This document shows, piece by piece, positions 18,654-50,453 of a stretch of 64,000 nt of DNA. The notes below the pieces were generated by a model. The model made no database searches. It was not told where the DNA came from and worked only from the letters and a program-made list of their open reading frames with translations. Position 1 is the first letter of the stretch. Every line of letters starts with the position of its first letter. The position numbers and the translations under genes were made by a program. This stretch comes from Nigrospora sphaerica (Eukaryota; Ascomycota; Sordariomycetes; Amphisphaeriales; Apiosporaceae), in the NCBI GenBank assembly GCA_018287875.1, contig JAGVVL010000015.1:2852001-2916000 (forward strand), written 5' to 3'.

Positions 18654-20573
18654 TCATGGGCCCACGAGGTTCTGTGACAGTCAGCTTCCCGACTCGAATC
18701 AAGACGGTTACCGGGCGTGGGAACTCACCATGGCTGCGGCCAGCACAGCAAGTGCCTGGGCCCGATCCGCGTTGTCGTGAATGGCGCAGCCCCAGGCGGT
18801 TTGCGCCCCGTCAGAGCACGTCGCGAAGGCGCCCCAGCCTCTGGTGCCGTGTATGCGGCATTCCGCCTGCGTTTCCTCGACGACGGCCTTCGCCTGCAGC
18901 TTCTGCAGGCGGGGCAGCCCGGCAACCACGGCCGAGGCGATGTCGGGCCCCGTGCTGTCGATGCGGGAGGCGGCGCGCGCGTCCCGTTCCACCGACGCCC
19001 TGAGCCGTACCGCATCGGAACCCCTCTCCACCAACAGGCCGGACACGCGCGTGCCCGTCACGCGGAAGTTGGTCATGTAGGCCGTGGCGAAAAGGTCCAG
19101 CACCTCGGCGTGCGACAGCTCCCGCGCCACCTGCTCGCACATGGCCTGCACCCGCCGGCCAAAGTCCACCTGGAGCTTGGCCGGCAGCTCCAACCCCCAG
19201 CGCCGGCTGAGAACCCACGCCGCCGCCGCTTTGCCGCTCTGCGAGTTCACGCGGATGATCTCGTCCAGTGGAATGCCCAGGTCCTCGGGGTCGAGTGGCA
19301 GGTAGGGGACGTCCCACAACGGCGCCGTCCCGGCCTTGAGCGACTCGACGCGCGCCGCGATGCCCTTGCGGATGACGTTTTGATGCCCGCCGCTGAAAGC
19401 CTGGAGTGCGAACTCGCCCGCGTACGGGGCGCGCTGGGGGACCGTGAGGCCGGTGAGGTCCTCGAAGATGCCCTTCAGCTTCCGAAGGTCCGAGAAGTCG
19501 AGGTTGGGATTTATGCCGCGGGTGTAGAGGTTCAGCGCGAGCGTGATCAGGTCCGCATTTCCCGCCCGTTCTCCGTTGCCGAAGAGACAGCCCTCGACCA
19601 TCTCGGCGCCGGCCAGCAGGGACAGCTCGGCTGCCGCCACGGCGCACCCGCGGTCGTTGTGCGTATGGGCCGAGACCTGGACCGCTTTCGGCTCGGGCAG
19701 CAGATTACGGAGGCGTTCCACCATGTCGGCAAAGACATTGGGCGTGGCGACCTCGAGGCTGGAGGCCAGAACGACAACCATGGGATCCTCGGCCGTCGCC
19801 CCCCACGCCTGCCGGACGGTCTCGAGGACGCGTGCGGCGTAGTCGACGTCGGCTTCCGAGAAGGACTCCATTCCGAAGGCCAGCGACCACTCCGTCACCT
19901 TGGAGGCCTCGGGGTCGTCCTTGGTCAGCGAGCGCAGGTAGCGCACTGCGTCGACGGCCTGCTCCACCGCTTGGTCCCGGCTGAAGCCGAGGTAGCGAAG
20001 ATTGTTGTCGCCGACGCAGATGTAGGTGCAGACGCTGGCGCGCTTGGCGCCTCGGAGGGCGGCTACGGTGCGCTCCAGGAAGTCCCTGCGCGTCGGCGAC
20101 AGGGCTCGCAAACGCACGTCGTCGGGAACCTCGCCCGGCGTTTCGACCAGACGCCGCGTAAAGTCAAACTCGGTCTGCGACGCCGCGGGGAAAGATACCT
20201 CGATCTCCTTGAACCCCGTGGCAACCAAGACTCTGAAGAGTTGCAGTTTTTGTTCCAGTGTCTGCGCCCAAGTCAGCACGCCGCCGCCAACCACTGCTCG
20301 TCGCCCCGGAGTCGGCCCGCCCTGGCCATGCTGGACGTCTAGTTACCATTGGGTTAACCAAGGACTGGTTGCCGTCCCGTAGGTCTGTGGACAGCCATAT
20401 CGGGGCCTTTGAAATTTTCTGGTTAGGCCATTGCCGCTGTGTGTTGTCGATGTGCTTCAGGGGCGTGTATTTAAGGTGCGGACTGGTGATCCTACCATGT
20501 ATGAGTCCGGTGGGTCAACGATGGTATGCGGTGATATTTGGGAAGAGCCGCCGCCCTGGCGAGTTACTCACAT
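18654..20573 (-). CDS. 2-isopropylmalate synthase-like enzyme (keto-acid chain elongation)
   Basis: Model: 20573-20572, 20491-20347, 20261-18729 and 18671-18654, 565 aa. It would condense a 2-oxo acid with acetyl-CoA, the first step of leucine-type elongation. The N-terminus '[21 protein letters not shown]' (about 29-49) has the catalytic/metal RDGNQ motif of LeuA. '[19 protein letters not shown]', '[12 protein letters not shown]' (metal HxH, about 249) and '[15 protein letters not shown]' are also diagnostic. The C-terminus keeps a LeuA allosteric-type domain (about 470-560). No in-frame ATG precedes the conserved N-terminus: the only start I find is an ATG whose AT and G are separated by an 80-bp intron (donor GTGAGT, acceptor GTAG). 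The last exon is just 18 nt. The neighbours supply the rest of the pathway, so this is a cluster paralogue rather than the housekeeping enzyme. Confidence 0.88.
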
Positions 20574-21382
20574 GGTCTTCAGTGTCTACCGGGGGGCAGA
20601 AGAATTGAACGAGAGAGGGTGAAGGGCTTTGGTGGACAGGATACAACCATACAGAACAGACAGAACAGGAACGAAGGACTATACCTTATTCCTTCAAGCT
20701 AGTGCCTGTCAGATGCGTAAAAGTTCAAATTCTTGTTTAAATGAAGGTCGAATATGCTGAACTACTGTCGCGAATCGAAACACATCGACCTAAGGGATAG
20801 ATCTAGCTGCTTCCTGGTGGCTTACACCAAGGCTCTCGAGGGGAAACTGCTCTCAATATATGATGCGCCTCACTTACCTGCAGATGGCGTTCATTCCCAT
20901 CTGCCGCAACGAAGCCGACCCGTTTCCGTCCTGTCACGAGGTCGCCCCGGTGGTGTCTTGCCATGTCATCGCGGCCCACGACGGCGATTCCTGACCTCGC
21001 CTGTTGTTGACGCGGCCTCGCGCTGCGCTGTTATGACGGATCCTGGCCGCGCATCTTGACCGTGCTTGCTGACTGTGCTTGCTGACCGTGCTTGCTGACC
21101 GCGGTTTCTGACCATGGTGTCACGATTCGGCGGCCACGAGACAAGCAGTACTACTATTACCAAGTCGAAACCGAGACTCATATCCACGCTGTGGCTGATG
21201 GGTAACCGAGTCATGCACAGAAACAGGCCCGGAGCATCGAGGCCTATTAAAGTTCGCCTGAGGAACTCTAGTTCGGGATTGTTGCTTGTCAAACTCAACG
21301 ACACGAATCAAATCATAGTCGGAAAAATCGAAAACTACCAACGAAATCGGAAATTTTCGGAATTATCGGAATTATCGAAACC
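20574..21382. promoter_or_regulatory. Divergent promoter region with short tandem repeat
   Basis: It separates the divergently transcribed isopropylmalate synthase-like and asparaginase-like genes and probably serves both. At 21057-21112 it holds about 3.5 imperfect copies of a 13-bp unit (CGTGCTTGCTGAC). 21350-21378 has short GGAATTATC/CGAAATT repeats. No binding sites can be assigned with confidence. Confidence 0.45.
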
Positions 21383-23365
21383 ATGGAGGGACCACACTAT
21401 GCCATCGCCATTCACGCCGGAGCTGCTGAATCTTGGATCGGAGATGAGACGTCGGAGCAGGAAACGACTCGGTTGCTGAACTCTCTGCTGGAGGACGCCC
21501 TAGCACGTCTCGCCGCGGGTGCGTCGGCAGTCGATATCGTGACCGACGTTGTCACCGTTCTCGAAGACTATCCTGAATTCAACGCCGGCCGGGGGTCGGC
21601 TCTGAACATCGACGGTTTCCACGAGGTACGTACTTTGAGCGAACAAGACGTGTCCCTCGTCCCTAGAGTGCTAACGAGACTCCGTGGTAGCTCGAGGCGG
21701 CTGTGGTGGATGGGAAGACGTCCGAGTATCGTGCCGTGGCCAGCCTACAGAGGACCAAGAACCCAGTGCGCCTGGCCCGCGCTCTTCTCCCCAAACAAGT
21801 GCCGGCGTTGCTGGTCGGCAAGACGGCCGACGAACTGGCGGAGAAACTGGGCCTCGAGGTGGTCCCAAACTCTTACTTCACCACGGAAAAGCGCGAGCAG
21901 TACTGGCGAGCGAACGTACACAAGGCGCGATCGCTCCCCGAGGACCACGGCACCGCCGGCTGCGTCGTTCTCGACATCCACGGGAGACTTGCCGCCGCAA
22001 ACACTACTGGGGGCATGACTTTCAAGCCCACTGGTCGCATTGGCGATACGGCCATTCTGGGTGCCGGAATCTGGGCGGATGACAAGGTGGCCATCGCATG
22101 GTACGTATTCCCCCCCTTATCCCACAAATCACCACACCCGTTCCTCGCTAACACGCCACGACAGCAGCGGCACGGGAGAAGCCATTCTTAAATCCGGCGT
22201 GGCAGGAAAGGTGGCGGCCGAGGTCAACAGGGGTGGCGTGCTCGAAGAAGCGGTGGGGAAAGTCCTTCTGAGCTCGGCCGAACGATTCCCCCATTCATCC
22301 TGCGGAGTGATTTCCGTCTCGGTCGATGGCTCCGTGTGCATTCAAAACAACAGCAGGCTGTTTGTGGCGGCGTCGGCGTCGTCGCGGCCACCAACACCAA
22401 GAGTTGCGGGCGTGCTGCCGTCCACCTTCGCCCTCCTCAACCAGCATATCGTGCATCAAGACGACATGATGAAGGCCGGGCTGGCAAAATACCCCGTCGT
22501 AGCGAACCAAATGGCCGTCGAACTACGGCCCGGCGCTCGGCTGCCTTCCTTGGATCTCGTTCCGTTCCTCGTTTTCTCAAGGACGCTTTTCCACATCGTC
22601 GGCGCCCTTTGCGACCACGTCGGGCAAGTCCCTTGTGGCTTCATCATGGGAGGAGACAAGGCCGGGTTCGTTTTCCCGGTGAACTCCAAGAAGCCATACT
22701 CACCCGCGGAATCAGAGGGAAACGCCGCCTCGGCAGCTTGGAGAGTATGCCCCGATGGCGGCGAGGCTCCGACGGTGGCGGTTGCGCCGAAGCCCAGTGC
22801 CACGCCGCGCGGCACTTCCACCGAGGCTCACAAGACAACCACCCTAGATCAGGGTCACGAAATGGAAGCGTCTTTCCAAACCACGCCACAGAAAGTACTG
22901 AGCGAAGTCCGAGTTCGTGGCCTCCAACGCGACCACCGGCCTTTGTTTCAACTGCCACTCCCGGACTACCTCGGCTTCTGGGCAGCCACTTGGAAAGCTC
23001 TACGGATAGTTAGTACCGAGTACGAAGTACCACTTTCTTCGCTGCATTTAGAGGTCGTACCGGACTGCCCTGGTGGCGCCGAAATAAAGATCCTGCCACC
23101 ATCTGTCACGCGTAGTCGCTTTCCCCGTGCTGTCCCCTACTACGAACAGTGGCCCGGCTTCATGACCGTAGAGAACGGCACCGTGGCACAGGACCTCGAT
23201 AAATTTGACCTGTTGGCTGTGCAACTCCGCACACGCCTGAGTCGGAGGCTCAACCACGCGAAGGACGACGAAGCGTCAAGCAAATCCGGCGGAGACCGTG
23301 GACTTGGCCTGGAGGACTGCCCCCGCGAGGCTGTCGCGCTCCTTTACGACGTACTCCTTCGATGA
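21383..23365 (+). CDS. Isoaspartyl peptidase/L-asparaginase (Ntn hydrolase) with unknown C-terminal extension
   Basis: Exons 21383-21625, 21691-22100 and 22165-23365, 617 aa; introns 65 and 64 bp. The N-terminal half is a plant-type asparaginase/isoaspartyl peptidase: 'YAIAIHAGA' at the start, 'VLEDYPEFNAGRGSALNIDG', 'ELEAAVVDG', and 'HGTAGCVVLD' with the self-cleaving nucleophile Thr at about residue 169; 'NTTGGMTFKPTGRIGDTAILGAG' and 'CSGTGEAILKSG' form the Thr/Gly-rich active site. Family members are usually 300-350 aa. Here about 300 further residues follow, with a Pro/Ser-rich linker and an ordered block 'FQLPLPDYLGFWAATWKAL...LHLEVVPDCPGG' that I cannot place. In the cluster it could hydrolyse an amide or beta-aspartyl bond in the product or free its amide donor; that is inference. 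Confidence 0.82.
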
Positions 23366-23970: not shown

Positions 23971-24588
23971 CTACGGCTCGGCGGTGAGGCGCCGCAGCTC
24001 GGCACAATGACTGATTAGGTGCTCTAGAATCCTCGCCGCCGCCTCGCCGGGAGAGAGGCGGGTCACATCCAGCTCGAATGCTGCCGGATGGCCGGCGAAC
24101 CTGTACAGCTCTGCGTCCTCCCTGAAGCGCCTCGCCAACTCGACGTCGACGAGTTTTTTGTGCTGGGCCCGATCGCCGGCCACGAGTCTCTGCAGGTTGG
24201 TCTCGACGTCGCAATGGAGAAGTATGGGCACGAAATCGCTCCCACGCTCCGCGGCACAGGCGGCGTGCTCGTGGCAGACGGCGGCGCCGAGTTCGTTGGA
24301 CGATTGGAAATCGGTGAAAATGTAGGCCGTTGCGTGCGTGCTCTCCTCGTGCGCGAGAGCATGGAAGACGGCAGCGCGAACCGAGCGGCGCAGCGTCTGG
24401 TACCCGGGCTGCGTACGGCCCAGGATGGCGTCGACGGGGTTGATGAGAAGGTGATTGTGCACCAATTTGGCGTGCGGCGGGCGCAAGAGGGCCAGCAGTT
24501 CGCGACAGATGGTTAACTTGCCCGTGCCGGGAAAGGCATTGATGTGGATGATGGGAAAGGGCCTCGGCCCGTTTGGAAGCTCACTCAT
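23971..24588 (-). CDS. P-loop kinase-like protein (AAA_33 / zeta-toxin-like nucleotide-binding fold)
   Basis: Single exon, 205 aa. The N-terminal 'IIHINAFPGTGKLTICREL' (about 13-31) is a Walker A loop of the form GTGKLT found in small fungal P-loop kinases. 'AYIFTDFQSS' is a probable Walker B strand and 'FVPILLHCDVETNLQRLVAGDR' a lid/LID-like arginine region. Length and layout fit small-molecule kinases such as the chloramphenicol phosphotransferase/gluconate kinase class. The substrate is unknown. Within the cluster it could phosphorylate an intermediate or give self-protection, but it may be unrelated. No signal peptide. It is followed by the isopropylmalate dehydrogenase-like gene on the same strand after 710 bp. 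Confidence 0.7.
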   Translation of the reverse strand: MSELPNGPRPFPIIHINAFPGTGKLTICRELLALLRPPHAKLVHNHLLINPVDAILGRTQPGYQTLRRSVRAAVFHALAHEESTHATAYIFTDFQSSNELGAAVCHEHAACAAERGSDFVPILLHCDVETNLQRLVAGDRAQHKKLVDVELARRFREDAELYRFAGHPAAFELDVTRLSPGEAAARILEHLISHCAELRRLTAEP

Positions 24589-25298: not shown

Positions 25299-26735
25299 TC
25301 AGCCAAGTTGGGAGAGAACCTTGACCACGTGATTGCCAATGCCGCTCGTCGTGGCGTTTCCCCCCATGTCCTTCGTACGCACGCCGGCCTCTATCGTGTC
25401 CCTCACTGCCTTCTCGATGGAATCGGCCGCGTCGGGCATGGCGAGCGAGTACCGGAACATCATGGCTACGGAGAGAATCATGCCCAGGGGGTTCACAACC
25501 TGCTTTCCCGCAATGTCGGGGGCGGACCCTGGTTGCGTTATTCCGTCAGTAACTGGGTTTGGGAACGGCAAGGCCCGCGCCGCTCAGCGGAAAGTTGGGG
25601 CCACGAGAGTAAGAACTTGCCGTGGATGGGCTCGTACAAGCCCTTGATGGGACCAGCTTCGGCCGTGGGGATCCCGCGCAAACTGGCGCTGGGCAGCAGG
25701 CCGATGCTCCCGGCGATGGCACTCCCCTGGTCGCTGATGATGTCGCCGAAGAGGTTGCTGGCCAGCACGATGCCGTTGAGCTTGGTCGGCGCGCACGCCA
25801 GCAGCATGGCCGCGCTGTCGGCCAGCTGGTGAGATAGGGGCACGTCGGGGAACTCCCTAGCGAACACGTCGCTGACGACCTGGCGCCAGAAGGCCCCGCA
25901 GGCCATCAGCACGTTGGCCTTGTCCAGGCTGATGACGGGACGCGGCGGCTTGTGCTGGCGCGCGAGGCTGCCGGCGAGCCGGGCCACCCGCTCGACCTCC
26001 TCATAGGTATAGCGGTCCGTGTCGAACGCGGCCCGTTCTCCGCGCTCCTTCTGTCCGAAGTAGATGCCCCCCGTGAGCTCGCGGATTATGAGAATGTCGG
26101 TGCCGCGGACGATGTCGGCCTTGAGCGGTGAGTCTTCGACGAGCGATGGCGCCGCGAAGTGGACGGGACGTAGGTTGCCGTACAGCTGCAGCTCGCGGCG
26201 TAGTACGCCGAGGCTGAGATACTCGACCGAGGGCACGAGTCCGTTCCATTTCTGGACCGCAGCGGCCGCATTTGTTCATCAGCAACTCGGAGGCGACAAG
26301 ACCCGCAACATCAGGAGGATCGGCCTTCGCTTACCGGGCCTCCCACGGCACCCAGCAGCACCGCGTCGGCATCTTTGGCGGCCTGCAAGGCTTCAGGACG
26401 GATGGCCTCGCCGTAGAGATCAAAGCTGGTCTAAACGATGGGGGGTTATGGGGGGAGAAATATCAGTAGTAGCCACCAAGAAAATTTGATTCCACGGATA
26501 CCCACCCCTCCCAGCTCGTAGGACTTGACGTTGTATTCGACGTTAGGATAACGACGCATTGCTTCATGTAAAACCTTTAACCCTTCAGCTAGGACCTAGA
26601 AAAGCGAGTGTTGCGTGATTAGTAACGCTGATATCAAGATGGGCCTCGAGGACATGTGGCAGTGAAGAAATCGTGTACCTCGGGTCCGGCATAATCTCCA
26701 CCAAAAGCAATGATGTTGAGTTTCTTGCCGGCCAT
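25299..26735 (-). CDS. 3-isopropylmalate dehydrogenase-like enzyme
   Basis: Five exons: 26735-26679, 26595-26506, 26430-26335, 26251-25621 and 25528-25299, 367 aa, the usual LeuB length. It would oxidise and decarboxylate the isopropylmalate analogue with NAD+. Motifs in order: 'NIIAFGGDYAGPE' (start), 'ADAVLLGAVGGPKWNG' (about 70-84), 'LRRELQLYGNLRP', 'RELTGGIYFG', 'SLDKANVL' (catalytic Lys, about 190), 'SNLFGDIISDQGSAIAGSIGLLPSASL' (metal Asp pair, about 244) and 'YEPIHGSAPDIAGK'. The last motif is complete only if the last intron (25529-25620) uses a GC donor (G|GCAAGT). Two details differ from housekeeping LeuB: Gln after the second Asp where Glu is usual, and Gly-Val where the substrate-recognition helix normally has Leu-Leu/Lys. 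It transcribes away from the aminotransferase gene. Confidence 0.9.
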
Positions 26736-27621: not shown

Positions 27622-28899
27622 ATGAATTTGACAGCAAACGAAATGGAGTCGGCTTGCGTACAGGAGCCCAACCGCAATGTGGATTGGAGCAGCGTAGGCT
27701 TCACTCCTTATCCCGGTACGTCGCCTCCCCGGCCCGTAGATGGCGAAACCCCTGGGGGCCTCAGCTCACCTCTGACTTGACGTCGGAAAGTGAACGGCCA
27801 TATCCAATGCAACTTCTCGAGCGACACGGGCAGCTGGAGTGAGCCGCAGTGGGTCACGAGCCCAATGCTCCAAGTCCACGGCTTCGCGCCGGGGCTCAAC
27901 TACGGCCAGCAGGCCTTCGAGGGTCTGCGCGTCTTCCGCGATGAGGCCGGGGGCATCCGGCTGTTCCGGCTTTCGACGCACGCGGCCCGTTTCGCGCGCT
28001 CTACTGTAGCCGTGGGTATACCGGCGGTGCCGACGAAGCTCTTCGAACGGGCCGTGCGGCTCGCCGTGGCCCTCAACAGCGAGTTCGTGCCGCCTTTCGC
28101 GAGCTCCGGCTGTTCCATGTACGTACGGCCCGTCGCCTTCGCCAGCAGCGCCAGCCTGGACCTGCGCCCCGCGACGGGCTACACTTTGGCCGTCATGGTC
28201 ACACCCATCACCGTCCTCTACCAGCCCAAGGGGCTCCGGGCCCTTGTCGTCGAGGACTTTGACCGCACGGCGCCCCGCGGCACTGGCGCCGTCAAGATCG
28301 GCGGCAACTACGGCCCGACCGTCCCCATCATGCAGGCCGCCCGCCAGAAGGGCTTCGCCCTCACCCTGCACCTCGACTCGCAGACCAACTCGGTCGTTCA
28401 TGAGTTCTCCGCCAGCGGCTTCGTCGCCCTCAAGGTGCTTCCCGGACAGGCGGGCCCCCTCCGCACGCTGGTCATCCCCAAGGACGACCAGATCCTGCCG
28501 AGCATCACTGTCGACAGCGTCGCCACCGTCGCCGCCTCACTAGGCTGGGAGGTAGAGCGCCGCAAGGTACGTACTTGGGCGTCCCGACGTCTGTCTCCTC
28601 CCTCCCCTGCCTGACCCTTGCTCCAGATTCCTCTCCTGGAGCTCGCGAGCTTCACCCAGGTGTACACCGTAGGCACAGCTTCGTCTTTAGTCCCCGTCGG
28701 CAGCATCGACCACGAGTCGGCCGGGGCATGCTACAACTTTACTGTCGACGCTGAATCGCCTGACTCGGCCCACAACATCCTGAACGAGCGCCTGCATAGG
28801 ATCAAGCGTGGCATAGACGCCGAGCCTTGGGGGTGGGTCGAGAAGTTGGAGGCAGGCGAGATTCTCCCCGACGTGAAGAGAATCCTGGGACGCGAATAG
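27622..28899 (+). CDS. Branched-chain amino acid aminotransferase-like (class IV PLP enzyme)
   Basis: Exons 27622-27715, 27791-28566 and 28627-28899, 380 aa; introns 75 and 60 bp. It transfers an amino group to a branched or extended 2-oxo acid using PLP. Motifs: 'VDWSSVGFTPYPVNGHIQCNF' near the start, 'HGFAPGLNYGQQAFEGLRVFR' (substrate/PLP entry), 'GTGAVKIGGNYGPTVPIMQAA' with the PLP Lys at about residue 199, 'HEFSASGFVAL' (the E-x-S motif of fungal BCATs), and 'VGTASSLVPVGSI' near the end (cofactor phosphate region). No clear mitochondrial presequence, so probably cytosolic. As the last step of an elongation set it would give the extended amino acid. Confidence 0.9.
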
Positions 28900-29369: not shown

Positions 29370-31700
29370 CTACTCTGGTTTGAACTTGTCGACCCGGACC
29401 CTCCAAAGCATCGCGACGATGATGCAGGCCGCCGCTAAGCAAATGCCGAACGTCGCAGTAAATGCTTTTTGGTAGGCGTTGATGACTACGAAGCAAAAGT
29501 CAGCTGGAAGTGAAAAAAGAACCGTGGTGATGCGATCTGCCCACTCAATAGTTTCAACGGGTCGGGAATGGACTTCAAGAGAACGGGGTCCTCCCGTACT
29601 GCATTGGCCGTCTATCCCAAGATTTGTCAGTCTAACGGGCGCCGCTTTTGGTCCGGCCCGGGAGTACACACCTGGATATCGCGGCTGTCCAGCTCGTCTC
29701 TGCCCAAAACCGACAGAAAAAGGTTTTGCAAGATGGCGGTGCTGAGAGCCGTGGATACGAAGATGCCGAGGGAGCGAAACATGATCAACCCACTGTTGGC
29801 CACGGCTTGATCTTGGGTCGGGGTGATGTTCAAAAGCGCCAAAACGGTGCTGGGGGCGAGCATCGCCACGCCCACCGTCGGTAGGGCCAGCATGATGTAG
29901 TACACGGCGTCGGGGACGCCGAAGCGCTGGAAAATAGAGGCCATGAGGACGAGCCCCAGCCCTCCGGCGAACAGCATGACCTGGCTCACGGCCATGGTAA
30001 GTCGCGGACTCCCCAGGCGTGCGACGAGGGACCCCGTCAGCGCGCTGCTAACGGTGAAGGTGATGGAGGGCACGACCAGGCGCAGGCCGGCGTCGCGCAC
30101 CGAGTCAAGTTTGACCAACTGGAAGAACAGCGGCGTGTTGTACAACAACTGGACCCGCTCAGTAAGCACCTGTGTATCGGGGGTGGACGGGGGAATGCGG
30201 TGGCAGTTTGGCCTTTGCGTGACGTACCGTCGAGTTGGCCAGGCTCGCGAGAAAGCCAGCGCACATCAGGTTCCCCGTCGGGAAGGCAAGGAAAAGGTAG
30301 GGCGGGAGGACGGGGTTCGCAACTTTGGTCTCGATGTACGCAAAGCCGGCGACGGAAAGAATGGCCGTCACGGCCGTGGTGATGACGGCGGGGTGTTTCC
30401 AGTTGTACACGTTACCTCCCAGGGTCAAGCACACGAAGAGACTGCCCAGGGCCGCAACCTGTTCCGGCTTAGTTTCAGCCAGCGCACGTCTTCGGGCCTT
30501 GCGAAGCATCATACCAAGAAAAGGGAGCCTTTCCAATCGAACTTGGCCAGGATCGTTTGCCGGAAGGTTTGGCCCTCCCTTTTCCCCCGGGATTTGGGAA
30601 CGAAGCAGGCTAACAAAACAGCCGCAAGCACGGTTATCGGGATCTGAGTCTGGGAGTCCGGTAAGCCTTTATACCCTTGCTTCAGGGGGGGAGGACGAGG
30701 CCGAGAGAGAGCAAACCTTGTATGCCCAGCTCCAACCAAGCTGTTCGACAATGATTCCCCCAAGGGCGGCGCCCATTCTACCTTCACATTAGTACCCGAC
30801 CTTTCTGTGTCCATGTCTTGTTCGTGTCGCCGGTATACGTACGCATTGCCAGTCCCGTAAATCATATAGTTGAGCGATTGGTAGTACCCTCTCTTCTTCA
30901 CGCCGACCACATCGGTAAGGAGGACGGATCCTAAGGCCGAGTAAGCACCCAACTCGTGTTCTGCAGCCCATCGGTCGATGGACGCCTACCCATTGTCACG
31001 ACCCCGGCCGACCCGATGCCGCACAGCGCCCGGGCGAACAACAGCACCCCCCATATCGGGGCAAAGGAGGATAGAAGGATGGCGGCGGCGAACAGGAAGG
31101 ATGCGAACAGGTAGGGGATGCGCCTGCCGACCAGGTCGGAGAAGCCTCCGTACAAGGGTTGGAAGACCATGGACGTGAGGACGAAAGAATTGACGAGCCA
31201 TGAGGACAAGTTTGCGTGGTTGAAATTGGACGCGATGGCAGCGTGCGTCGAGCTGTTGAGACCCGAATCATACGCCGTTGACTGTGAAACGGTCAGGGAG
31301 GCGTCTCATCTGGTCTGCGGGCGGAGAGAACGTACGAAGTTGGATATTGAGATTGCTATGGCTCGGCCGTTAGTAAGGAGTAGTCATGGAACGGCTGATG
31401 TACGGGAAAAAGTAGCAACATGCGGTAAAAGGGACAGATCTGAAGCATACCGAGAATTACAAGCACGAGCTGAAGCTTTCCCGACCTCTTAGGATTGTCT
31501 ACCACTGCCTCGGAGGTATCTGGCTGGGCACCCGCAGGAGAATTGTCTCGCTCCGGCTTCCTGGTCTCTTGAGGTCCATCCTCTTGGTCTCCCTTCTCCG
31601 ATACCCCCGTCGCGACTGAACGGGATTCTGTAGTCAAATCCTGCCGCTCCGGCCCATCGTGCGCTCTCTCCCGCTGCTCATTCTTTTCTGTTTGGGGCAT
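29370..31700 (-). CDS. MFS exporter, DHA2/VBA-like (14-TM type), ten exons
   Basis: Exons: 31700-31451, 31355-31336, 31281-30990, 30930-30843, 30777-30717, 30649-30515, 30458-30228, 30169-29672, 29611-29545 and 29485-29370; 585 aa. All joins keep phase; introns are 54-95 bp. The second exon is only 20 nt. A charged Glu/Arg-rich tail of about 75 residues precedes TM1. 'SWLVNSFVLTSMVFQPLYGGFSDLVGRRIPYLFA' (MFS signature loop), 'ARALCGIGSAGVVTMGSVLLTDVV' (TM4-5) and 'GAALGGIIVEQLGWSWAY' (antiporter motif C) put it in the DHA2 group close to fungal VBA-type transporters. Likely exports the cluster product or moves an amino-acid precursor. An upstream ATG (31874) adds an unconvincing extension. 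Confidence 0.85.
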
Positions 31701-32880
31701 GATCGGTGGCAAAGGGGCGCAAGCCGTCGGGGACTCGGGGTCTATGAGAGCTATCAATCGCACCAAAGCAATTAAAGGGGGAAAGGGGTTCAAAAACAGC
31801 GTGCCGCGAGGGTTTCCCGTGTTATAAATATTCACAGCGGATAGGAAAACAGTTTTGGCCCTGGGCATCCACACCCTTCCTCGGCCCGACGAGAAAGCGG
31901 CCGGAAGACCTTGCTGAGTAAGGCATAAGATGGTACAGGTGGAGCTATCGGGGTGTATTCCCCCTGGGATATTCCGCTTGATAGGCCCAAGTTCTTTTGA
32001 AATATGATTACGGAGGGCGCCAGGAGCTCTGACGAACGGTGGATCTTTGGCGGTTGATGTCTATAGAAAGAAATTGCCTCCATCAGCGGCTCGAAGATGC
32101 CGGGAGCAGGGATGGGACCAGTTCGGCGATTGGCGACTCACCCGAATCGTATGACCAATATATATCTGCATGGTCAGCGGTGGACCGAAATTCAGCGGTG
32201 GCCGGCCCCGGAACTTGCCTGCGCCGTCACAGGTTCACCGTCACAAGGGCATAGGAATCTCATCTCATTGTACCGAGGGTCGATATGACCACGGCTGTTT
32301 AGCCCACCTGATGCTAGGTTTGGCTTGGTTGGGTTGCATGACGTAGCCTCGTGGAGGTGTCTCGGTAGGAGAAGATGTCTGCGAGCCACGCGTAGCTATC
32401 TTGCCTTTTAATCCGATGGAACATCGGTCTGCTGCTAGCCGAAGCTTGCCAGGATGGCAAAAAAGTACCTGGGCGGAACCGCCGAGGCGACGACGCGATA
32501 GGGCTATGCCAACAGGCCCGCAGACAGATGGTAAGCTCGACGCCCTCTTGGCAGAGAACATACTGCGTTCTTGGAGCGGCACAAGGTGATTACAACGGTA
32601 CGTCCTCCCATGAGCAGGGCAATATCGGTAAGGGGTTCTCCATGGTGTTTCCTGTCTAGAAACGAGCGTTAAAAAGCCCAAAATACCCAGGCCTCTGGGG
32701 GTTGCCCTTTCGGAAACGAATACAGGCGTGTCCAACAGCGCAAGCGGCAGTTGAGGTCCAGCAGGCCCATTGGGCATGATTTTGCGATCGATAGTTGGAT
32801 CCACTCCGCGTGGTCCCCTCATGACGCTGAATATTCCCGGTTGATCCAGCTGCGAAAGTGAGAGACCAATGGAAGACGGG
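31701..32880. other. Intergenic
   Basis: 5' flank of the MFS exporter gene and 3' flank of the small ORF. A 185-codon minus-strand frame at 32265-32822 has no recognisable features and is not called. Confidence 0.45.
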
Positions 32881-33760: not shown

Positions 33761-34900
33761 ATGGCCGTCGGCGTTGTTCCCTCCACCACCACCACCACCA
33801 ACGGCACGGCCCGCAAGGCGGAGCAGGTCGAGCGCAAGCCCACGACGGCGCTGACTCACAAGGCGCCCAAGCTCTGGCAGCAGCCGCAGACGTTCGCCGT
33901 GGAGGCGCTCAAGAGCCCCTGGTACTCTGCCCTCTTCGGGATCCAGAGCACGCTCTTCCACTCGTCCATCGACTTCTTCCGCTCGCAGATGGGGTACGAG
34001 TACCTCATCGTGCCGGTGACGACGTCGAGCATCAGCTCGCCCATGGGGCTCGGGTCCGACTCGCAGCCCGTCAGCATCGAGCTCGGCGGCCTCGACACGT
34101 ACCTGGCCGACTCGCAGCAGTTCGTGCTCGAGTACGCCCTCCGCTACCAGCAGGGACTCGCCGGCACCTACTACGTGGGCACCTCGTGCCGCGGCGAGGA
34201 CCCCGACGCGACGCACCTCAACCAGTTCTGCCACGTCGAGTGCGAGCTCCTCGGGCCGCTGGAGAAGGGCGTCGACGTGGCGAACCGCTACGTGGCCGAG
34301 CTCACCAAGTCCCTCCTCGACCGCCACGGCGACCAGATCCGCGCCTGCGCCGGCACCACCGAGCACCTCGAGTCGCTGCTGAAGCTGTACCGCGCCCACA
34401 ACAATGCCTTCCCGCAGATCACGCTGGACGAGGCCCTGGCCCTGCCCGAAATCACCGACGACATGTGGGCCTACGCCGTCGAGGGCGAGCCCAAGTACGG
34501 CCGCACGCTGACGCGCAAGGGCGAGCTCATGTTGATCAAGAAGTTTGGCGGCGCCTGCTGGCTGCTTGAGATGGACCACCAGAGCGTGCCCTTCTACCAG
34601 GCCTACACCGACGCGAGCCGGCGCAAGGCCCGCTGCGGCGACCTCCTGCTCGGCCTGGGCGAAGTCGTCGGCTGCGGCCAGCGCCACGTCACGGCCGACC
34701 AGGCCCTCGAGGCCCTTCACCAGCACGAGGTCGACCCTGCCTCGTACGCCTGGTACCTCGACATGCGCCGCGTCCAGGCGCTCGAGACGACGGGCTGGGG
34801 CATCGGCACCGAGCGCTTCATGTGCTGGGTCCTGCAGCACGACGACGTCCGCGACGTTCAGCTGCTGCCCCGCCTCAAGGGCGTCGAGTGCGCCCCTTAG
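33761..34900 (+). CDS. Free-standing asparaginyl-tRNA-synthetase-like catalytic core (class II aaRS fold)
   Basis: Single exon, 379 aa. After a disordered Thr-rich tail the protein has only the class II catalytic domain. Motif 1 region: 'SALFGIQSTLFHSSIDFFRSQMGYEYLIVPVTT'. Motif 2: 'SCRGEDPDATHLNQFCHVECELLG' (about 143), matching AsnRS/AspRS 'FRAE...HLPEF..LE.E' with the ATP-binding Arg and the Glu. Motif 3: 'GWGIGTERFMCWVL' (about 345), with the invariant Arg. The N-terminal OB-fold anticodon-binding domain is absent, so it probably does not charge tRNA. The closest known logic is the archaeal AsnRS-related asparagine synthetase, which adenylates Asp and accepts an amine. Here it probably activates a carboxylate (aspartate-like) and forms an amide; this fits the neighbouring ATP-grasp and asparaginase. 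Confidence 0.83.
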   Translation: MAVGVVPSTTTTTNGTARKAEQVERKPTTALTHKAPKLWQQPQTFAVEALKSPWYSALFGIQSTLFHSSIDFFRSQMGYEYLIVPVTTSSISSPMGLGSDSQPVSIELGGLDTYLADSQQFVLEYALRYQQGLAGTYYVGTSCRGEDPDATHLNQFCHVECELLGPLEKGVDVANRYVAELTKSLLDRHGDQIRACAGTTEHLESLLKLYRAHNNAFPQITLDEALALPEITDDMWAYAVEGEPKYGRTLTRKGELMLIKKFGGACWLLEMDHQSVPFYQAYTDASRRKARCGDLLLGLGEVVGCGQRHVTADQALEALHQHEVDPASYAWYLDMRRVQALETTGWGIGTERFMCWVLQHDDVRDVQLLPRLKGVECAP

Positions 34901-35776: not shown

Positions 35777-36605
35777 TCACCGCAACGAAACACCCTGCCG
35801 AAGAAGATGGCCGACAAGCAAGGAACTCCCCGTTTCCGCGGCGCGATACAGTCGAGAGTACCCCTCGGGATCCAGCGAGTCCGCTTTGGCGCCGCTCTCC
35901 AACAGAAACACAGCCGCGGCGTCTTTTCCATTCCTGATTGCATAGTCCAAGGGCGACAGGCCGGCATCGTCGGTCGCGTCAACGTCGGCGCCATGGGAGA
36001 CGAGAAGCTGCACGACGCCAGTATGACCAAGCGCCGCGGCAATATGCAAGGGACCCCCCAATACGGGCTTTATTAGCGTCTGCAGCTCGGTCAGTGACAC
36101 GGTTTCTCCCACGATCAAGTTACGTGGCTTACCGTTTCGAAGAGAGCGCCACTGTTGTAAAGGCCACGGCCAGGTTCAGGCGTACTGGTCGGCGTGGCTT
36201 CCCGCGTCGTCGTCAAGGGGTCACAGGACACGGGGAAAAAGTCGCCATCCGCAGTGGCCCCATGATGGGGGGTAGCTGGACATTCCAAAGGGTGAAGTTG
36301 GTCACCCCACGTCGGGTCAAATGGCGAAAATAGGCCGAATCGCGAGAGATTGGAAATTTCATCATTCCGGGGCCCTTGGGCGAAGTCGTGATGAAAATGC
36401 GGCGAGGCCGTATCGCTCGCTGGCGGTGATGGGTAGGCTATATCCGGCCGGCTCTGGCTTAGACGTAGCCCTGCAAGCGGTGAGTTGACGGTCCGGACAC
36501 GTCCGTAGTATTTCAAGGCGACTCACGTGATCGCCTTTTCGCTAGACGGTTCTGCGTGCGACGCTTTTCCAAGTCGCTGTAGCTGACGATGGTCGGGGTC
36601 GACAT
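35777..36605 (-). CDS. ToxE-like bZIP-basic-region / ankyrin transcription factor (bANK type)
   Basis: Exons 36605-36527, 36470-36133 and 36079-35777, 239 aa. Residues 11-28 (DLEKRRTQNRLAKRRSRLRL) are a bZIP basic region with the N-x7-R core (Asn19, Arg27); intron 1 splits the Arg27 codon. No leucine heptad follows: the chain goes straight to Pro/Ser-rich sequence. The C-terminal 100 residues form about three ankyrin repeats, e.g. 'GGPLHIAAALGHTGVVQLLVSHGADVD' and 'AGLSPLDYAIRNGKDAAAVFLLESGAKAD'. A zipper-less basic region plus ankyrins is the architecture of the HC-toxin cluster regulator ToxE and related bANK proteins. It is therefore the likely pathway-specific regulator. It is shorter than ToxE. 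Confidence 0.85.
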
Positions 36606-38237: not shown

Positions 38238-40139
38238 ATGGGTTCACCTACTTCGACTGGTAGAATGGAGAGCGGGACAGCCACCAAGAGCCACTTCGTT
38301 TCCCACGTACTCCAGGTATCTCAGGATGCCGGGCTCCTTGATTCTCTCGTCCGGGCAGTACGTAATAGACTCGGCGCTGATGTCACACCCGCGGCCCGAG
38401 AGCTCGAGGCCTTATTGGAGGCCTTGTCCTCGACCGCGTCCGCTGCTGGCTCATCTGCCATCATCCTTGTTGGCTCAGTTTGTGCCGGCTGGGTCATCAG
38501 ATCCGACTATGTCGCTTTCCGGCTCCGACAGACGCGCTGCGCCGAGTCAATTCACCACTTGGCAGTCCCACGCGGTTGGATTCCGGCGATGCCGCCGAGT
38601 CGCGGGGCCAGCGGTCAGTCCGAGTTGGACCATCTGCTGCCGGCCACCCTGAGCGCGCTCATCGTCCGAGCCAAGGACCAAAGCGGGCTTTCGTCAAAGC
38701 TCGCCCGAATTTCGGCATTGCTGGCGAACCGGGTCGACATCCCGCTGACGCTCCCGCACCCCATTGAGCCCAAGACGGTCGCCGTCCTTGGGGGTGGTCT
38801 CAACATGGCCTATCGTCGAGCTTTTCTCGAGGCCGCCGCCGCGCTGGGCATCGGCCTGGTCATATTGGACCGCCCTGGCCATTGGATGGCGTCGCATCCC
38901 GAGCTTTGCGAGGCCTTCGTCCCTCTCGACACCACCAGGGACTCGGAGCTCTCCAATCGCATCGTCGCAGCATGTCGGGCGTACGGCAGACTGGACGGCC
39001 TCACCACCTACGCCGACGACCACCTCGAGACGACGGCGAGGGCGGCACAGCAACTGGGTCTCCCAGCCGAGTCACCCGAGGCACTCAGCACTTGCACCCG
39101 GAAGAACGAATTCCGGAGGCTTTTCCCCATATCGCAGTGCCCGTCCCTAAAAGTGGCCTCGGTGGATGAGTTTCGCGCGGGCGCGTCAGCATTCGAGGCG
39201 CACTACCCTCTCATCATCAAGCCGCCCAGCGGTGGGAACTCGGTCGGCGTGAGCAAGGCCGCCTGTCTGGCCGAAGCCGAGCAGCAGATTTCCCGTCTGC
39301 TTCAGACCCAGTCATCCGCCCTCGTTGAGAAATACATTCAAGGCCCCGAGGTGGATGTCAACGTGGCTCTCGTCGACGGCGAAGTGGCCTTTTACGACAT
39401 CGTGGACGAGCCCCCTTGCTCCGCCGAGACGCAGGAAACACCGGCACCGTCCGATCCGCCCTCCTCCTTCATCGAACCTTCGGCCATGTGGCCTTCGATT
39501 CTGCCTGCGAACGAGCAGGGCGTCCTATACAACATGGTGTGCAAAGGCCTTGCTCGTCTGGGTTTCAAAAACGGCGTCTTCCATGTCGAAGCGCGCATGA
39601 TTGACTCGGCTATGCAATGGGCTCCCAAGAGACTCGACGGGCTGGACGAGCCACTGTGGTCCCTGGGCTGGAAGCACGAGGACCAAAAGTGTCTTCCCAA
39701 TCCCGAGGCCATGATGATCGAGGCCAACGCACGTACTCCCGGGTACCCGGCAGCGCTGGGAAGCGTTTACTGCTCCGGCATTGACTTCGCGGCGATACAA
39801 CTGTTGCTTTGCGTCTCTGACAAGGTTCGGGCCCGGTCCCTATCCATTCCTTTCCGGGACAGCGGCAGCGCGTGCGTCATTTCGTATGCAGTACTCACGC
39901 CCCGGGGGGGCAAATTCCAAGGAGAGAACATGTATCAGGAGTTGGCTCGTAGCCATCCCGACTTGAGCAAGGCAATTTTGGAGCCAGTCTTGTTTTTCAA
40001 GGACGGGGATCTCATCAAAGACCCTCAAGAGCGGGCTTCATGGCTCACCACGTTCACTATGCGCTCCGAGGCCGGACGGGAGGAAGCCATGGTAGTGGGT
40101 GAGAAGATACAGCGCTGTCTTAAGTACAAAATTGTATAG
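38238..40139 (+). CDS. ATP-grasp ligase
   Basis: Single exon, 633 aa from MGSPTSTG (38238); ATGs at 38064 and 38265 are in frame too. The central and C-terminal parts are an ATP-grasp domain: 'LSTCTRKNEFRRLF' (pre-grasp helix, about 285-300), 'YPLIIKPPSGGNSVGVSKA' (ATP Lys and Gly loop, about 322), 'ALVEKYIQGPEVDVNVAL' (adenine-contact strand, about 363), 'LGFKNGVFHVEARMI' and 'MMIEANARTPGYPAA' (Mg2+ Glu/Asn, about 493). The N-terminal 200 residues include a Rossmann-like 'KTVAVLGGGLNMAYRRAFLEAAAALGIGLVILD' pre-ATP-grasp fold. Such enzymes activate a carboxylate as acyl-phosphate and join it to an amine. In the cluster it is the prime candidate for peptide-bond formation on the extended amino acid. 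Confidence 0.88.
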   Translation: MGSPTSTGRMESGTATKSHFVSHVLQVSQDAGLLDSLVRAVRNRLGADVTPAARELEALLEALSSTASAAGSSAIILVGSVCAGWVIRSDYVAFRLRQTRCAESIHHLAVPRGWIPAMPPSRGASGQSELDHLLPATLSALIVRAKDQSGLSSKLARISALLANRVDIPLTLPHPIEPKTVAVLGGGLNMAYRRAFLEAAAALGIGLVILDRPGHWMASHPELCEAFVPLDTTRDSELSNRIVAACRAYGRLDGLTTYADDHLETTARAAQQLGLPAESPEALSTCTRKNEFRRLFPISQCPSLKVASVDEFRAGASAFEAHYPLIIKPPSGGNSVGVSKAACLAEAEQQISRLLQTQSSALVEKYIQGPEVDVNVALVDGEVAFYDIVDEPPCSAETQETPAPSDPPSSFIEPSAMWPSILPANEQGVLYNMVCKGLARLGFKNGVFHVEARMIDSAMQWAPKRLDGLDEPLWSLGWKHEDQKCLPNPEAMMIEANARTPGYPAALGSVYCSGIDFAAIQLLLCVSDKVRARSLSIPFRDSGSACVISYAVLTPRGGKFQGENMYQELARSHPDLSKAILEPVLFFKDGDLIKDPQERASWLTTFTMRSEAGREEAMVVGEKIQRCLKYKIV

Positions 40140-40931
40140 AGCAATAAATTGAGCCGACGTCTCAGCTGGAACACGTGGGCCAGACCGTCTCCGAGTGTGG
40201 GCGATTTGATGATGACGAATGCCACGCTTTTCCGGCAAAGCAACCTGAGAAAGAAGGTAACATTGCCTCGTTGCCTCGGATGTCAGGGGACGCCCACTTG
40301 TCAGTCCCTCACCCCATCAGCCAGCGGCGTGAAGCTAGAGAGTATGCGTCCTGCGTTGTACATCCCCCCTTGCTTGGCTCTTGAGATCCTAGCCCGGTTC
40401 CCGGGCAGAATTGCAAGTCAGCCCCAGCCCTGTTCCTTTTCCCTCCCCCGCCCATACTCTGGGTTGAGCGGGATACGCCATAATACCGAGCGACACGTAG
40501 TGCAATAGCCCCTACGGATGAGGCGAAAGTTTCCGTCTAGAAAATTCCACACGTAGACGGACGGCAGGGTCAGGCAGCTGGTGACCCCCTTCATATGCGT
40601 GGTCAGCACGCGGCATTGCCGCAAACTTAATTCAACAATCCTGCTTTCGAGCCTGGGTTTACAGGGCCCCCTTCGGTTACTCAGAACATGCAGGACTCTT
40701 TCCGGTTGTAACAGGTGTGCGTCACCCAGCATTGGCACCTTTTGGTGCGGCTTCTGCCGGGTGTTTGTACCATTCATGTTCCTCCAGCCACTCCGTACCG
40801 AAGCAACCTGCGACGCAGAAGCCTCCTGCCCAGTTATAACCGAGATTTCGGCCAATACAAAACAACCCATCTAGTTCGCGTGTTCTCTCTGGATAACCTC
40901 TCAGTGCTTTCTGGTCACTTCGAATCTCACC
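40140..40931. other. Intergenic, promoter of the isopropylmalate isomerase-like gene
   Basis: The two genes run in the same direction. Frames up to 150 codons without motifs; nothing supported. Confidence 0.45.
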
Positions 40932-43900
40932 ATGGCCTCCCAAACGCTGCAGTCCCGACTGGGCCAGCTCTTACAGACAATCCGCGGCGTCTCCCTGGAC
41001 GACGCTTGGGCGTCCCTTCAGCATGGCAAAGACGAAACATCACCTCATCCGCTGGCTGTCTGTTCTGCACTGAGTGAGCACTTACGGCAGAAGGGATACG
41101 AGAAGGAAAGCGACATCCTCCAGCAGACGCTGGGTATTGCTACCACGAGAACCGAACTAGGCGGCATGGCCTTGTCATGGGGCAAAGAGCTTTCATCAGA
41201 CGATGTCGATGAGTTACTGCTTCTGATCTCGGCCTGTACGAAAGAATCCTTTGCTCTTCAGCACTTTAACTTCTTTCTCCTGTGTCTTCTTTCCACCAAC
41301 GTGCCCCCTAAAGCACCCCCGGGCTGAGCCCATCGGCTGACCGTGCTTTGGCCGCGCCAGGGCTGGAATCGCTGAATTCGGCGGAGAGATACGACGGAGG
41401 CTTCGAAGCCCCTCTGCTTGTACGCCCTGCTGGCCGTCCCCTCATGAACGCGACCGAGAAGATCTTTGCTTTCCACGATCTGTCCCGCGCCGGATACGTC
41501 AAGACGGGCGACACAATCCGCGTTTCCGTAGACTGGGTCATGGCCAGCGAAGCCAGCTGGCATGTAAGTCCCGGAAGCCCTCGCCCCCCCTTCACTACTC
41601 CCTTTTCGTCCGTCCTTCCTCGCCGCCAACTTTTCTGCCATGGGTACTGAACCAGAACGCTCGGCACAGGGCATGCTGCAGGTATACAACAAGCTCGGCG
41701 ACCCTGGCGTCTTCCGCAATGACCGCTTTTGGCTGGCCGGAGACCACGTGGTCGATCCCCGGCTTTCCGACACGCCATTAGTAAAGAGTTTGGTGCGCGA
41801 GATGGACTTTGCGCGCAAGAAGTTCAAGATGACGCAGTTCCAGGGCAGCAACTACACCATCATGCACACCGAGTTCTATCGCGAGCGAGCGCAGCCCGGC
41901 CAGATCGTCATTGGCTCCGACTCGCACACCTGCAGCGGAGGCGCCAACGGTTGCCTATCCATAGGGCTCGGCGCAGCCGAGGTAACCATGGCCTTGGTAA
42001 CGGGCCAAATCTGGTTTAAAGTGCCCGAGGTTGTCGAGATACGCCTTACGGGCAAACCGGCTCGTGGCGTCGGCGGCAAAGATGTCATCTTGTACATCCT
42101 ACAGCAGCTGAAGCGTAATACAGTGGCCGCCGACAGGGTGGTCGAATACACGGGGCCGGGTTGCCGATGGCTGAGCTCTGATGCCCGCTTTGCCGTCGCC
42201 AATATGACAACGGTAAGTGAGCCTGAGCCCGGAAGCTCCTGATCTCTGTCAGCGTCTTTGTCCCTTGCCTTTCACGCGTCTGCCCTGCACCTCTAGTCTC
42301 CACGTCGGGCTCCTCGCAGTCTGGGCTTTGCCTGACTCTCTTTAGGAATTTGGTGGCATTACCGGCATTTTTGTGGCCGACGGAGTGACCAAGCGCTTTG
42401 TCGAGTCCCGCAAGACTTACCATCATAAGAGCGCTTCCCACTACTTCCGTCCGGACGAGGGATGTTCCTATGTCGAGTCGTACGAAATCGACCTCGCCAA
42501 GGCCCAGCCCTCGGTGGCGCGGTATCCCAATCCGGACGACGTGGTGCCCGTGGGCGAGGTGGCCGGTACGAAGCTCGATGGCGTCTTTATCGGCGCCTGC
42601 ACGACGGCTGAGGAGGACTTGGTCGTGGGCGCCCTCGTCCTCCAGGCCGGCCTAGACGCCGGCCGCAAGCCCGTCGCCCGTGGCCAACGCCGCGTCGTGC
42701 CAGGCAGCCGACCCATCGCCGAACATCTCCGTAAGACCGGCCTTGCCGACGTATATGAACGGGCCGGATTCACCATCGGCATTCCCGGTTGCTCGTACTG
42801 TGTAGGCATGGGCGCCGACATGGCCGAGCCAGGCTCGGTCTGGCTCAGTAGCCAAAACCGCAATTTTGAGAACCGCATGGGAAAGGGTATGTGTCCAGCT
42901 CAAGCACCCCCCCCCTCATGAAACAGGCCTCCTGATCTGTGTGCATCTTCTGCCAGGCGCCATCGGTTCTCTGGCTTCAGCAGCAACAGTGGCGGCGTCG
43001 TCTTTTGACATGGTGGTGACGCCGCCGCAGGAACTGATCGACCTCATCCCAGACGAGCGGTGGAGCGGTGTCAAGGGAAGGGGCTCTTTGCCCGCCGATG
43101 ATGCCCTTGAAGAACCCCAATGGGTTGAGCCACCGGGACAAGATAGCCTCACCCAGGTGGATGAGAAGCCAAAGCGCGTCCCAGTTGAGGCGGCGAGCAA
43201 GGCCGCTATCGAGGCCGATGCATCCCCGACAAAAAGCACCCTAGGGCGCATCAAGAGCAAGGTTTACCGCCTGGGTGACTTTGTGGACACAGACGCTGTG
43301 AGTGATGACCCTCCACTTTGCCTGGACTTCATCGAGACCGACTTCGGCTGACTGTGCTCATTCTACTACAGCTTGCCCCTGCCCAGTTTCTCCTCATATC
43401 TAAGAATAATAAAGAGCTCGGGAACCACTGTATGGAGAGGAATGAGCCTGGGTTCCGGGATAGCGTGAAAGACGGCCACGAGGTCATTGTTGGAGGGAAG
43501 GCTTTTGGTTGTGGTTCCAGTCGCCAAGAAGCTGTCCAGGCCCTGCTCGGTAAGTGTTTCCCATGCAAATCAGCGGCTATTTACGCTAGCGACCGCTAAC
43601 GCAATTCAAACCCTGTCCTTCCAAGGTGTCGGAGCTAAGTGTGTCATCGCTAAAAGCTTCGCTTTTATTTTTGCACGGAACATGCCGTCGCTGGGCCTCC
43701 TGGGCTTCACTATCAGCGATGACCGCTTTTACGAGCTGGCAACGACAGGCGCCGCTATCGACATTGACACGGACCGAAACGTGCTGACTATTGCGGGCGA
43801 AACCTTCCAGTTCGCGCTGTCGCCCCTCGAGAAAAGGCTAACAGAGATTGGGGGTATCACGAATGCATTCTCGAAGTTTGGAAAACGAATCTACGATGTA

Positions 43901-43999
43901 CTGGCGGGGGGCGGGGCGACGGCGACGGCGACAGTGACGGCGAAGGTGTGCGGGACGCGGGAGGACGCTAAGGCAGTAAGTCGTAGCATGGCGTGGTAA
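40932..43999 (+). CDS. Isopropylmalate isomerase-like aconitase-family dehydratase (fused LeuC-LeuD)
   Basis: Seven exons: 40932-41235, 41361-41563, 41670-42212, 42346-42886, 42957-43297, 43372-43549 and 43626-43999; 827 aa, all phases consistent. It would move the hydroxyl of the 2-alkylmalate intermediate. The LeuC half has 'TEKIF', '[15 protein letters not shown]', '[10 protein letters not shown]' (about 256), '[11 protein letters not shown]' (about 434) and '[12 protein letters not shown]' (about 499/502): the last three Cys of these are the usual [4Fe-4S] ligands, all present. The LeuD swivel half follows after a charged linker: '[11 protein letters not shown]', '[37 protein letters not shown]'. 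The first 100 residues (exon 1) are not LeuC-like and their junction to exon 2 (125-bp intron, donor GTACGA) is the least certain. The gene ends the cluster; a retrotransposon begins 300 bp downstream. Confidence 0.87.
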
Positions 44000-50213: not shown

Positions 50214-50234
50214 CTTACGTTTAAAAAGAAAAAG

Positions 50235-50447
50235 TGTAAGCATTTAAAGGAGTTATAGTGGCACCGTTAGGTATATAGTAGCGAAAGATAGTCTTAATTC
50301 TACTATAAGATTAATTTTTATAGAATCTAAATTTAAGTCGGGCGTTAACGGTGCGCCCACTTCTCGCTAATAGGCCGCCGGTGAGTTTATATTGTAAGTT
50401 AAGCGATTAGCTTATAAATGCACTTCTTTAACGCTTCCTCTCTTATA
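50235..50447 (+). repeat. Decayed solo LTR (213-bp family)
   Basis: Same length as the intact copies but many C-to-T and G-to-A changes (ends TGTAAG...CTTATA). No clear target duplication. Confidence 0.75.
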
Positions 50448-50453
50448 ATTATA

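Follow-up and report, generated by a model that had tools for sequence, protein, structure and literature searches.

A gene cluster of the fungus Nigrospora sphaerica, located at positions 18654 to 43999 of a 64,000-nucleotide stretch (here called the window; C7:2852001-2916000 in a genome of 51.6 Mb and 33 contigs, with introns, gene content, and database relatives that point to an ascomycete), combines a leucine-type enzyme quartet with putative stand-alone amide-forming enzymes and contains no nonribosomal peptide synthetase (NRPS). Gene models from a splice-aware finder and families called by Pfam above curated cutoffs confirmed that this cluster is real. As an initial annotation of the DNA had claimed, homologs of 2-isopropylmalate synthase (IPMS), isopropylmalate isomerase, 3-isopropylmalate dehydrogenase (IPMDH), and a branched-chain aminotransferase occur there together, and Pfam matches likewise verified the accompanying ATP-grasp ligase, asparaginyl-tRNA synthetase (AsnRS)-like enzyme, N-terminal nucleophile (Ntn) amidase, and exporter. 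Judged from homology, predicted structures, and analogy with known pathways, the chances are slightly better than even that the cluster makes a chain-extended amino acid and incorporates it, without an NRPS, in a small peptide or amide.

A domain census of the region from 17.5 to 44.6 kb covered 131 open frames of at least 90 amino acids, with shorter exons outside the scan. All 17 Pfam families found at E ≤ 1e-5 were assigned to named cluster genes, and none of the 131 frames matched Condensation, AMP-binding, ketoacyl-synthase, P450, or 2-oxoglutarate oxygenase domains. Genome-wide searches revealed Condensation and ketoacyl-synthase matches (37 of 37 and 88 of 88 candidates scored, respectively), none of which fell inside the window; on the same contig, the closest ketoacyl synthase was located ∼280 kb to the left of the window. 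The genome-wide AMP-binding search scored 14 of 95 candidates. The census and the Condensation and ketoacyl-synthase searches thus upheld the previously annotated absence of NRPS and polyketide synthase (PKS) genes from the cluster. An NRPS or PKS elsewhere in the window or in its AT-rich right flank was ruled out by the genome-wide searches and by comparing the NRPS of a sister cluster (see below) with the window plus 20 kb.

The idea that these are the only leucine genes of the organism was rejected, since further members of the IPMDH, aconitase/isomerase, and class IV aminotransferase families are present elsewhere in the genome and the only LeuA_dimer domain lies on contig C5, together with another IPMS. 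The C5 IPMS model shares at most ∼71% identity with the IPMS proteins listed as database matches. Pfam detected no LeuA_dimer in the window IPMS or in a further IPMS on contig C18. These results indicated that the cluster genes are not those of the housekeeping leucine pathway. On C18, a second cluster (C18:1484674-1518159; loci L039, L036, L034, and L035) comprises an NRPS, IPMS, P450, IPMDH, aminotransferase, and isomerase. In tblastn comparisons, the window and C18 copies were 58% identical for IPMS, 66% for the isomerase, 70%, 61%, and 70% in segments of the aminotransferase, and 89% and 72% in the main segments of IPMDH (49% in an 84-column segment across introns). The corresponding tblastn segments of the other copies considered in the genome showed 46% and 33% identity for IPMS (40% between the two proteins over 538 columns), 51% for IPMDH, 45% for the aminotransferase, and 28% for the isomerase. 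Overall, main-segment identity was 58 to 89% to the C18 quartet versus 23 to 51% to the other copies. The window quartet is a separate lineage with an NRPS-adjacent sister set. Of the duplicated leucine pathway proposed initially, the existence of further copies held true, but a recent copying of the genome's own housekeeping genes did not.

The IPMS substrate pocket was read at positions 167, 169, 216, 250, 252, and 254 of an alignment with Mycobacterium tuberculosis LeuA (1sr9), six positions which we take to line the keto-acid site; matching positions in Escherichia coli have reportedly been engineered for larger substrates. The window and C18 enzymes share the pocket C-Y-G-V-A-S with 22 of the 120 database matches listed, among them relatives from Diaporthe, Colletotrichum, Apiospora, and Pyricularia. 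The C5 copy carries H-Y-S-N-P-T, as do 81 of the listed matches; 13 others have S-Y-S-N-P-T, and 4 deviate, including P0154 and P0159 (C-Y-G-G-G-S), which fall outside the clade of the window. Within the clade of the window and C18 enzymes, 24 of 25 rows show C-Y-G-V-A-S and one (P0147) shows C-Y-A-A-P-S. Another IPMDH copy in the genome has a Leu-Leu pair (EQGLLRLR), presumably a substrate contact, that is changed to Leu-Gly in both the window and C18. That two enzymes in the same pathway are altered where they meet the side chain of the substrate argues for a larger substrate, and the keto acid extended by the quartet is probably larger than usual. This much of the initially suggested homoleucine-like amino acid is retained; the pocket changes do not separate an aliphatic from an aromatic substrate, and homoleucine itself is a guess that is not established. 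Since the window IPMS lacks LeuA_dimer, inhibition by leucine has probably been lost, and a duplicated, feedback-free pathway might merely raise the leucine supply. With housekeeping-type pocket residues replaced in all 25 rows of the window/C18 clade and the IPMDH contact altered as well, however, we consider this explanation very improbable.

In the IPMS tree, the window sequence was joined first by two close database relatives (support 100/100) and, at the next level, by Diaporthe and others (95/95); the C18 sequence grouped with Apiospora and Pyricularia (100/99). Support for the fork holding the whole window side was only 83/91, and the IPMS of Colletotrichum somersetense sat on a long branch in an unsure position, about which the tree program issued a warning. 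This topology suggests that the window and C18 enzymes diverged long ago or were transferred among fungi, and speaks against their having arisen by recent duplication in place. In C. somersetense, the longest contig recorded for both the IPMS (P0152) and the AsnRS-like protein (P0018) measures 36,321 bp; because these sizes are equal, both genes are probably on one contig, so that a check for conserved synteny yielded probable linkage of the two in one second species. Another source, designated "lgn," contained close relatives of the ATP-grasp ligase (84%), AsnRS-like enzyme (92%), and IPMS (90%), whose longest contigs differed in size.

The C18 NRPS has three adenylation, three thiolation, and three condensation domains (two stretches were scanned, with the first 145 codons outside them). 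At E ≤ 1e-5, no relatives of the window ATP-grasp ligase, AsnRS-like enzyme, asparaginase, or major facilitator superfamily (MFS) transporter (the latter searched with a partial model) were found in 60 kb of C18. This cluster is of conventional AM-toxin-like design and a closer parallel to the AM-toxin cluster than that of the window. An NRPS with such domains, together with two quartets of identical pocket signature in one genome, might suggest that the window quartet feeds the same amino acid to the C18 enzyme, with the ligase genes serving something else. We think such cross-talk rather unlikely: the C18 cluster owns a complete quartet, the grouping of the two IPMSs with different genera argues for separate roles, and C. 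somersetense probably has its AsnRS-like and IPMS genes linked.

At least nine relatives of the ATP-grasp ligase were found at E ≤ 0.001 among 7996 candidates scored. The matches listed included one at 84% identity, seven at 29 to 35% (four of them from two Trichoderma, Aspergillus alliaceus, and Lasiosphaeris hirsuta), and a Kitasatospora protein that aligned over 45% of the query. A structural model built from 9 sequences had a predicted local distance difference test (pLDDT) score of 74.0, and Foldseek ranks 1 to 6 were all L-amino-acid ligase entries, with BL00235, BacD, and RizA as the nearest folds. K319, E355, E362, E486, N488, and R490, to which we assign the roles known for this enzyme type, were invariant in 9 aligned sequences. 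According to the model, the protein best resembles bacterial L-amino-acid ligases and is predicted to have ligation activity, in agreement with the amino acid ligation originally suggested. A second ATP-grasp gene of the genome (31% identical) is located beside a POT-family (PTR2) transporter gene (L133-L134, C18:729275-733793), which is perhaps another small NRPS-free peptide locus.

In the AsnRS-like enzyme, R144, taken as the motif 2 arginine, was invariant in 23 aligned sequences, and R352, taken as the motif 3 arginine, was nearly so. Its model (pLDDT, 82.6) matched AsnRS best. Archaeal asparagine synthetase A (TMt 0.80) shares the class II AsnRS core without an anticodon-binding domain but differs in sequence (15% identity in the structural match). 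The best NCBIfam model was asparagine synthetase A, at 194.8 bits, below the equivalog cutoff of 322. The search of the genome gave two further, weak matches and no second close copy. Among the best 120 of 1105 relatives, the AsnRS-like domain was accompanied in the same chain by an asparaginase domain in three proteins and by a HIT domain in seven. Fusions of asparaginase and AsnRS-like domains (P0047, P0093, P0096, and L040) occur in a bacterium, a fish, and a fungus and argue that the window asparaginase homolog and AsnRS-like enzyme cooperate. By eye, the tail of the asparaginase homolog resembles the HIT-like linker between both domains of fused relatives; Pfam found neither a HIT domain nor any family besides Asparaginase_2 in this protein. 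In one protein of "Candidatus Parabeggiatoa" (L040:1-4494), acyltransferase, asparaginase, HIT, and AsnRS-like domains are present in a single chain. Paralogous aminoacyl-tRNA synthetases were earlier predicted to act as nonribosomal peptide ligases, according to the available text of PMC2922099.

For bacterial AsnRS-like loci (L040-L119), 143 pattern matches were obtained, of which 130 were confirmed and 80 kept. Relatives of a bacterial ATP-grasp match were present in 6 of the 80 loci, relatives of the window ATP-grasp ligase in 1, and homologs of IPMS, IPMDH, or the isomerase in none; by these counts, bacteria do not usually have the combination seen in the fungus. The commonest neighbor (42/80), as identified from two representatives, was an S66 LD-carboxypeptidase, and a methyltransferase family occurred in 25 loci. 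In a single alphaproteobacterial locus (L108:6412-7026), a homolog of the small kinase-like protein of the window directly follows the AsnRS-like gene.

Several observations weigh against assigning all these genes to one NRPS-free pathway. Co-location with the quartet was established for none of the ATP-grasp relatives listed, linkage in C. somersetense was read from equal contig sizes only, and an asparaginase homolog was present in just 2 of the 80 bacterial loci. Moreover, the C18 IPMS has the identical pocket, yet its quartet adjoins an NRPS, so that the pocket itself is no pointer to an NRPS-free product. Shared promoter motifs were rejected as well: in dinucleotide shuffles of six intergenic regions, no shared word exceeded chance once word choice was allowed for, as 46% of the shuffles had an 8-mer in four of the six regions and 79% a 9-mer in three of six. 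The words ACCCATCAG (4 in the window versus 0.40 expected; reached in 0 of 100 shuffles) and CCCATCAG (5 versus 1.95 expected) were both chosen after looking. ATCTCNCGNA, which we take to be the ToxE binding pattern (tox-box), occurred at chance level (2 matches versus 1.92 expected). The lack of a shared motif would also suit a quartet that merely happens to adjoin an unrelated ATP-grasp/AsnRS/asparaginase locus, as would the occurrence of AsnRS-like relatives in many fungi, such as Trichoderma, Penicillium, and Metarhizium, that do not appear with the named C-Y-G-V-A-S IPMS matches (the best 120 were listed for each family). Such a chance neighborhood is unlikely in our view, given that quartet and ligase genes are interleaved, that linkage is probable in a second genus, and that the modeled exons of the cluster genes are free of internal stops.

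In the pathway that we favor, IPMS, isomerase, and IPMDH would add one carbon to an alpha-keto acid, the pocket fitting a side chain larger than that of the leucine precursor, and the aminotransferase would convert the product to a chain-extended L-amino acid. The ATP-grasp enzyme would then phosphorylate a carboxylate and couple the chain-extended amino acid to a second unit. Next, the AsnRS-like enzyme might form a second amide, the role of ANL amide-bond synthetases in E-64, dapdiamide, and cystargolide, while the Ntn asparaginase homolog may supply or remove the amine or edit the product. Export by the MFS protein and regulation by an ankyrin protein would complete the system. This order of extension, condensation, and amide formation follows E-64 (PMC12568646) and cystargolide (PMC11427300), as far as the accessible portions of these sources describe them.

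PMC11427300 and PMC11408123 describe for cystargolide and belactosin an IPMS homolog with ATP-grasp and adenylating ligases but no NRPS or PKS, and the available text on pantaphos (PMC7858074) describes an operon with IPMS- and isomerase-like enzymes and ATP-grasp proteins. Only part of the window quartet might thus be used, for an alkylmalate-derived beta-lactone warhead or a pantaphos-like unsaturated acid. We regard this as highly unlikely: the IPMDH and aminotransferase homologs lead on to an amino acid, and methyltransferase and AMP-binding families were absent from the census frames. Returning to the chain-extended amino acid, a broader version of that proposal is possible but doubtful. 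Two versions of one chain-extension module would coexist in one lineage, one feeding an NRPS and the other an ATP-grasp ligase plus a class II aminoacyl-tRNA synthetase-derived amide synthetase with its Ntn partner. The AsnRS-like/asparaginase pair would then act as an amide synthetase that transfers asparagine or an amine and functionally replaces ANL amide-bond synthetases, and the small fungal peptides made from chain-extended amino acids would form a new class.

The features of the cluster are listed in Table 1. The IPMS homolog matched HMGL-like (187.9 bits) and IPMS_D2; its first exon (20347-20491) carries DLRDGNQ, and the model has no trustworthy start codon. The isomerase contains the cysteine motifs GACTTAEED and PGCSYC, and its LeuD part (Aconitase_C) scored 18.4 bits, under the cutoff of 22.8. 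In the ankyrin protein, Ank repeats are located at 35780-36175 and a basic stretch, seen by eye, at 36525-36569, with no Pfam match to bZIP. The ToxE-like regulator of the initial annotation therefore stands as to its repeats and not as to a bZIP family match; a ToxE-like general design is a weaker assignment.

Table 1. Genes of the N. sphaerica cluster from left to right (window coordinates)
Feature	Position	Strand	Evidence
IPMS homolog lacking the LeuA regulatory domain; changed keto-acid pocket	18654..20491	-	Pfam, gene model, pocket signature, tree
Asparaginase_2 (Ntn hydrolase) homolog	21383..23365	+	Pfam, 251.4 bits on spliced model; gene model
Small P-loop kinase-like protein; cluster membership uncertain	23971..24588	-	AAA_18 below cutoff
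IPMDH homolog; approximate splice junctions	25299..26735	-	Pfam Iso_dh, 203.6 bits; PDB alignment; other copy in genome; frames
Branched-chain aminotransferase homolog	27643..28899	+	Pfam aminotransferase class IV, 66.9 bits; gene model
MFS exporter (predicted)	29370..31926	-	MFS_1, 126.2 bits on spliced model
Class II adenylating enzyme, AsnRS-like; length leaves no room for an anticodon-binding domain	33761..34900	+	PF00152, 84.9 bits
Ankyrin-repeat protein with upstream basic stretch; exon structure approximate	35777..36605	-	Pfam Ank; coordinates
ATP-grasp ligase, ATPgrasp_N/ATP-grasp_4 type; start possibly 38238	38265..40139	+	Pfam PF18130/PF13535/PF07478; relatives; fold
Isopropylmalate isomerase homolog (LeuC part and LeuD-like part)	40932..43999	+	Pfam Aconitase in two exons; gene models in two pieces

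The divergently oriented genes for IPMS and the asparaginase homolog flank a tandem repeat of five overlapping copies (26-nucleotide register, 13-nucleotide spacing) at 21043-21120 of the window. To the left of the cluster, a T5orf172 (GIY-YIG-like) domain protein is encoded at 7840-9000, and the GC content drops to 0.48 at 16 to 18 kb. On the right, it is at most 0.41 in most 2-kb steps from 50 kb, except at 60 to 62 kb (0.54). With low GC from 50 kb through 20 kb past the window, the cluster borders an AT-rich, gene-poor stretch (window 50000-60000 and C7:2916001-2936000).

NRPS-independent amide formation is described as rare among fungal natural products in the accessible text of PMC12568646. 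Cluster finders keyed to NRPS or PKS core genes would probably miss the window locus. If our interpretation is correct, one precursor-supply module serves two assembly logics within one genome, C-Y-G-V-A-S offers a signature for mining chain-extension clusters, and the function of the widespread AsnRS-like/asparaginase pair becomes testable.

The echinocandin homotyrosine (hty) genes encode the same enzyme quartet in an NRPS-dependent lipopeptide pathway, to our knowledge without an ATP-grasp or AsnRS-like partner. For the AM-toxin cluster of Alternaria alternata, the available text of PMC8102738 describes AMT5 to AMT8 as extending the keto acid of tyrosine for the NRPS AMT1, and that of PMC5561558 reports a counterpart of the gene set in Zymoseptoria tritici. 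As described there, this type shares the clustered quartet with the window but uses an NRPS where the window has ATP-grasp and AsnRS-like enzymes. IPMS, isomerase, and dehydrogenase likewise extend 2-oxobutanoate before amide formation in the sec-pentyl-tenuazonic acid pathway of A. alternata, which involves an NRPS and further branched-chain enzymes; the accessible part of PMC12140367 names no ATP-grasp or AsnRS-like enzyme. The fungal, NRPS-independent E-64 genes (cp1/cp2) resemble the window in encoding two stand-alone amide enzymes, one ATP-grasp and one adenylating. By the description available in PMC12568646, however, Cp1B has no detectable Pfam domain and resembles homoglutathione synthetase, while the window ATP-grasp ligase has ATPgrasp_N/ATP-grasp_4 and resembles BL00235, BacD, and RizA; the adenylating enzyme is of ANL type rather than class II aminoacyl-tRNA synthetase-like; and the four cp genes include no leucine-type quartet. 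Conversely, an E-64-type Fe(II)/alpha-ketoglutarate oxygenase and ANL synthetase were absent from the 131 window frames of the census. Bacterial cystargolide and belactosin (PMC11408123 and PMC11427300) share an IPMS homolog and ATP-grasp enzymes without an NRPS with the window, and pantaphos (PMC7858074) shares IPMS-/isomerase-like enzymes and ATP-grasp proteins; according to the portions available, their products are beta-lactones or a phosphonate, in contrast to the chain-extended amino acid proposed here. No description of the quartet together with ATP-grasp and AsnRS-like enzymes was found in the literature, a search that covered few subscription journals. The nearest described kin are the NRPS clusters that use the same quartet, and its combination with ATP-grasp and AsnRS-like enzymes appears to be new.

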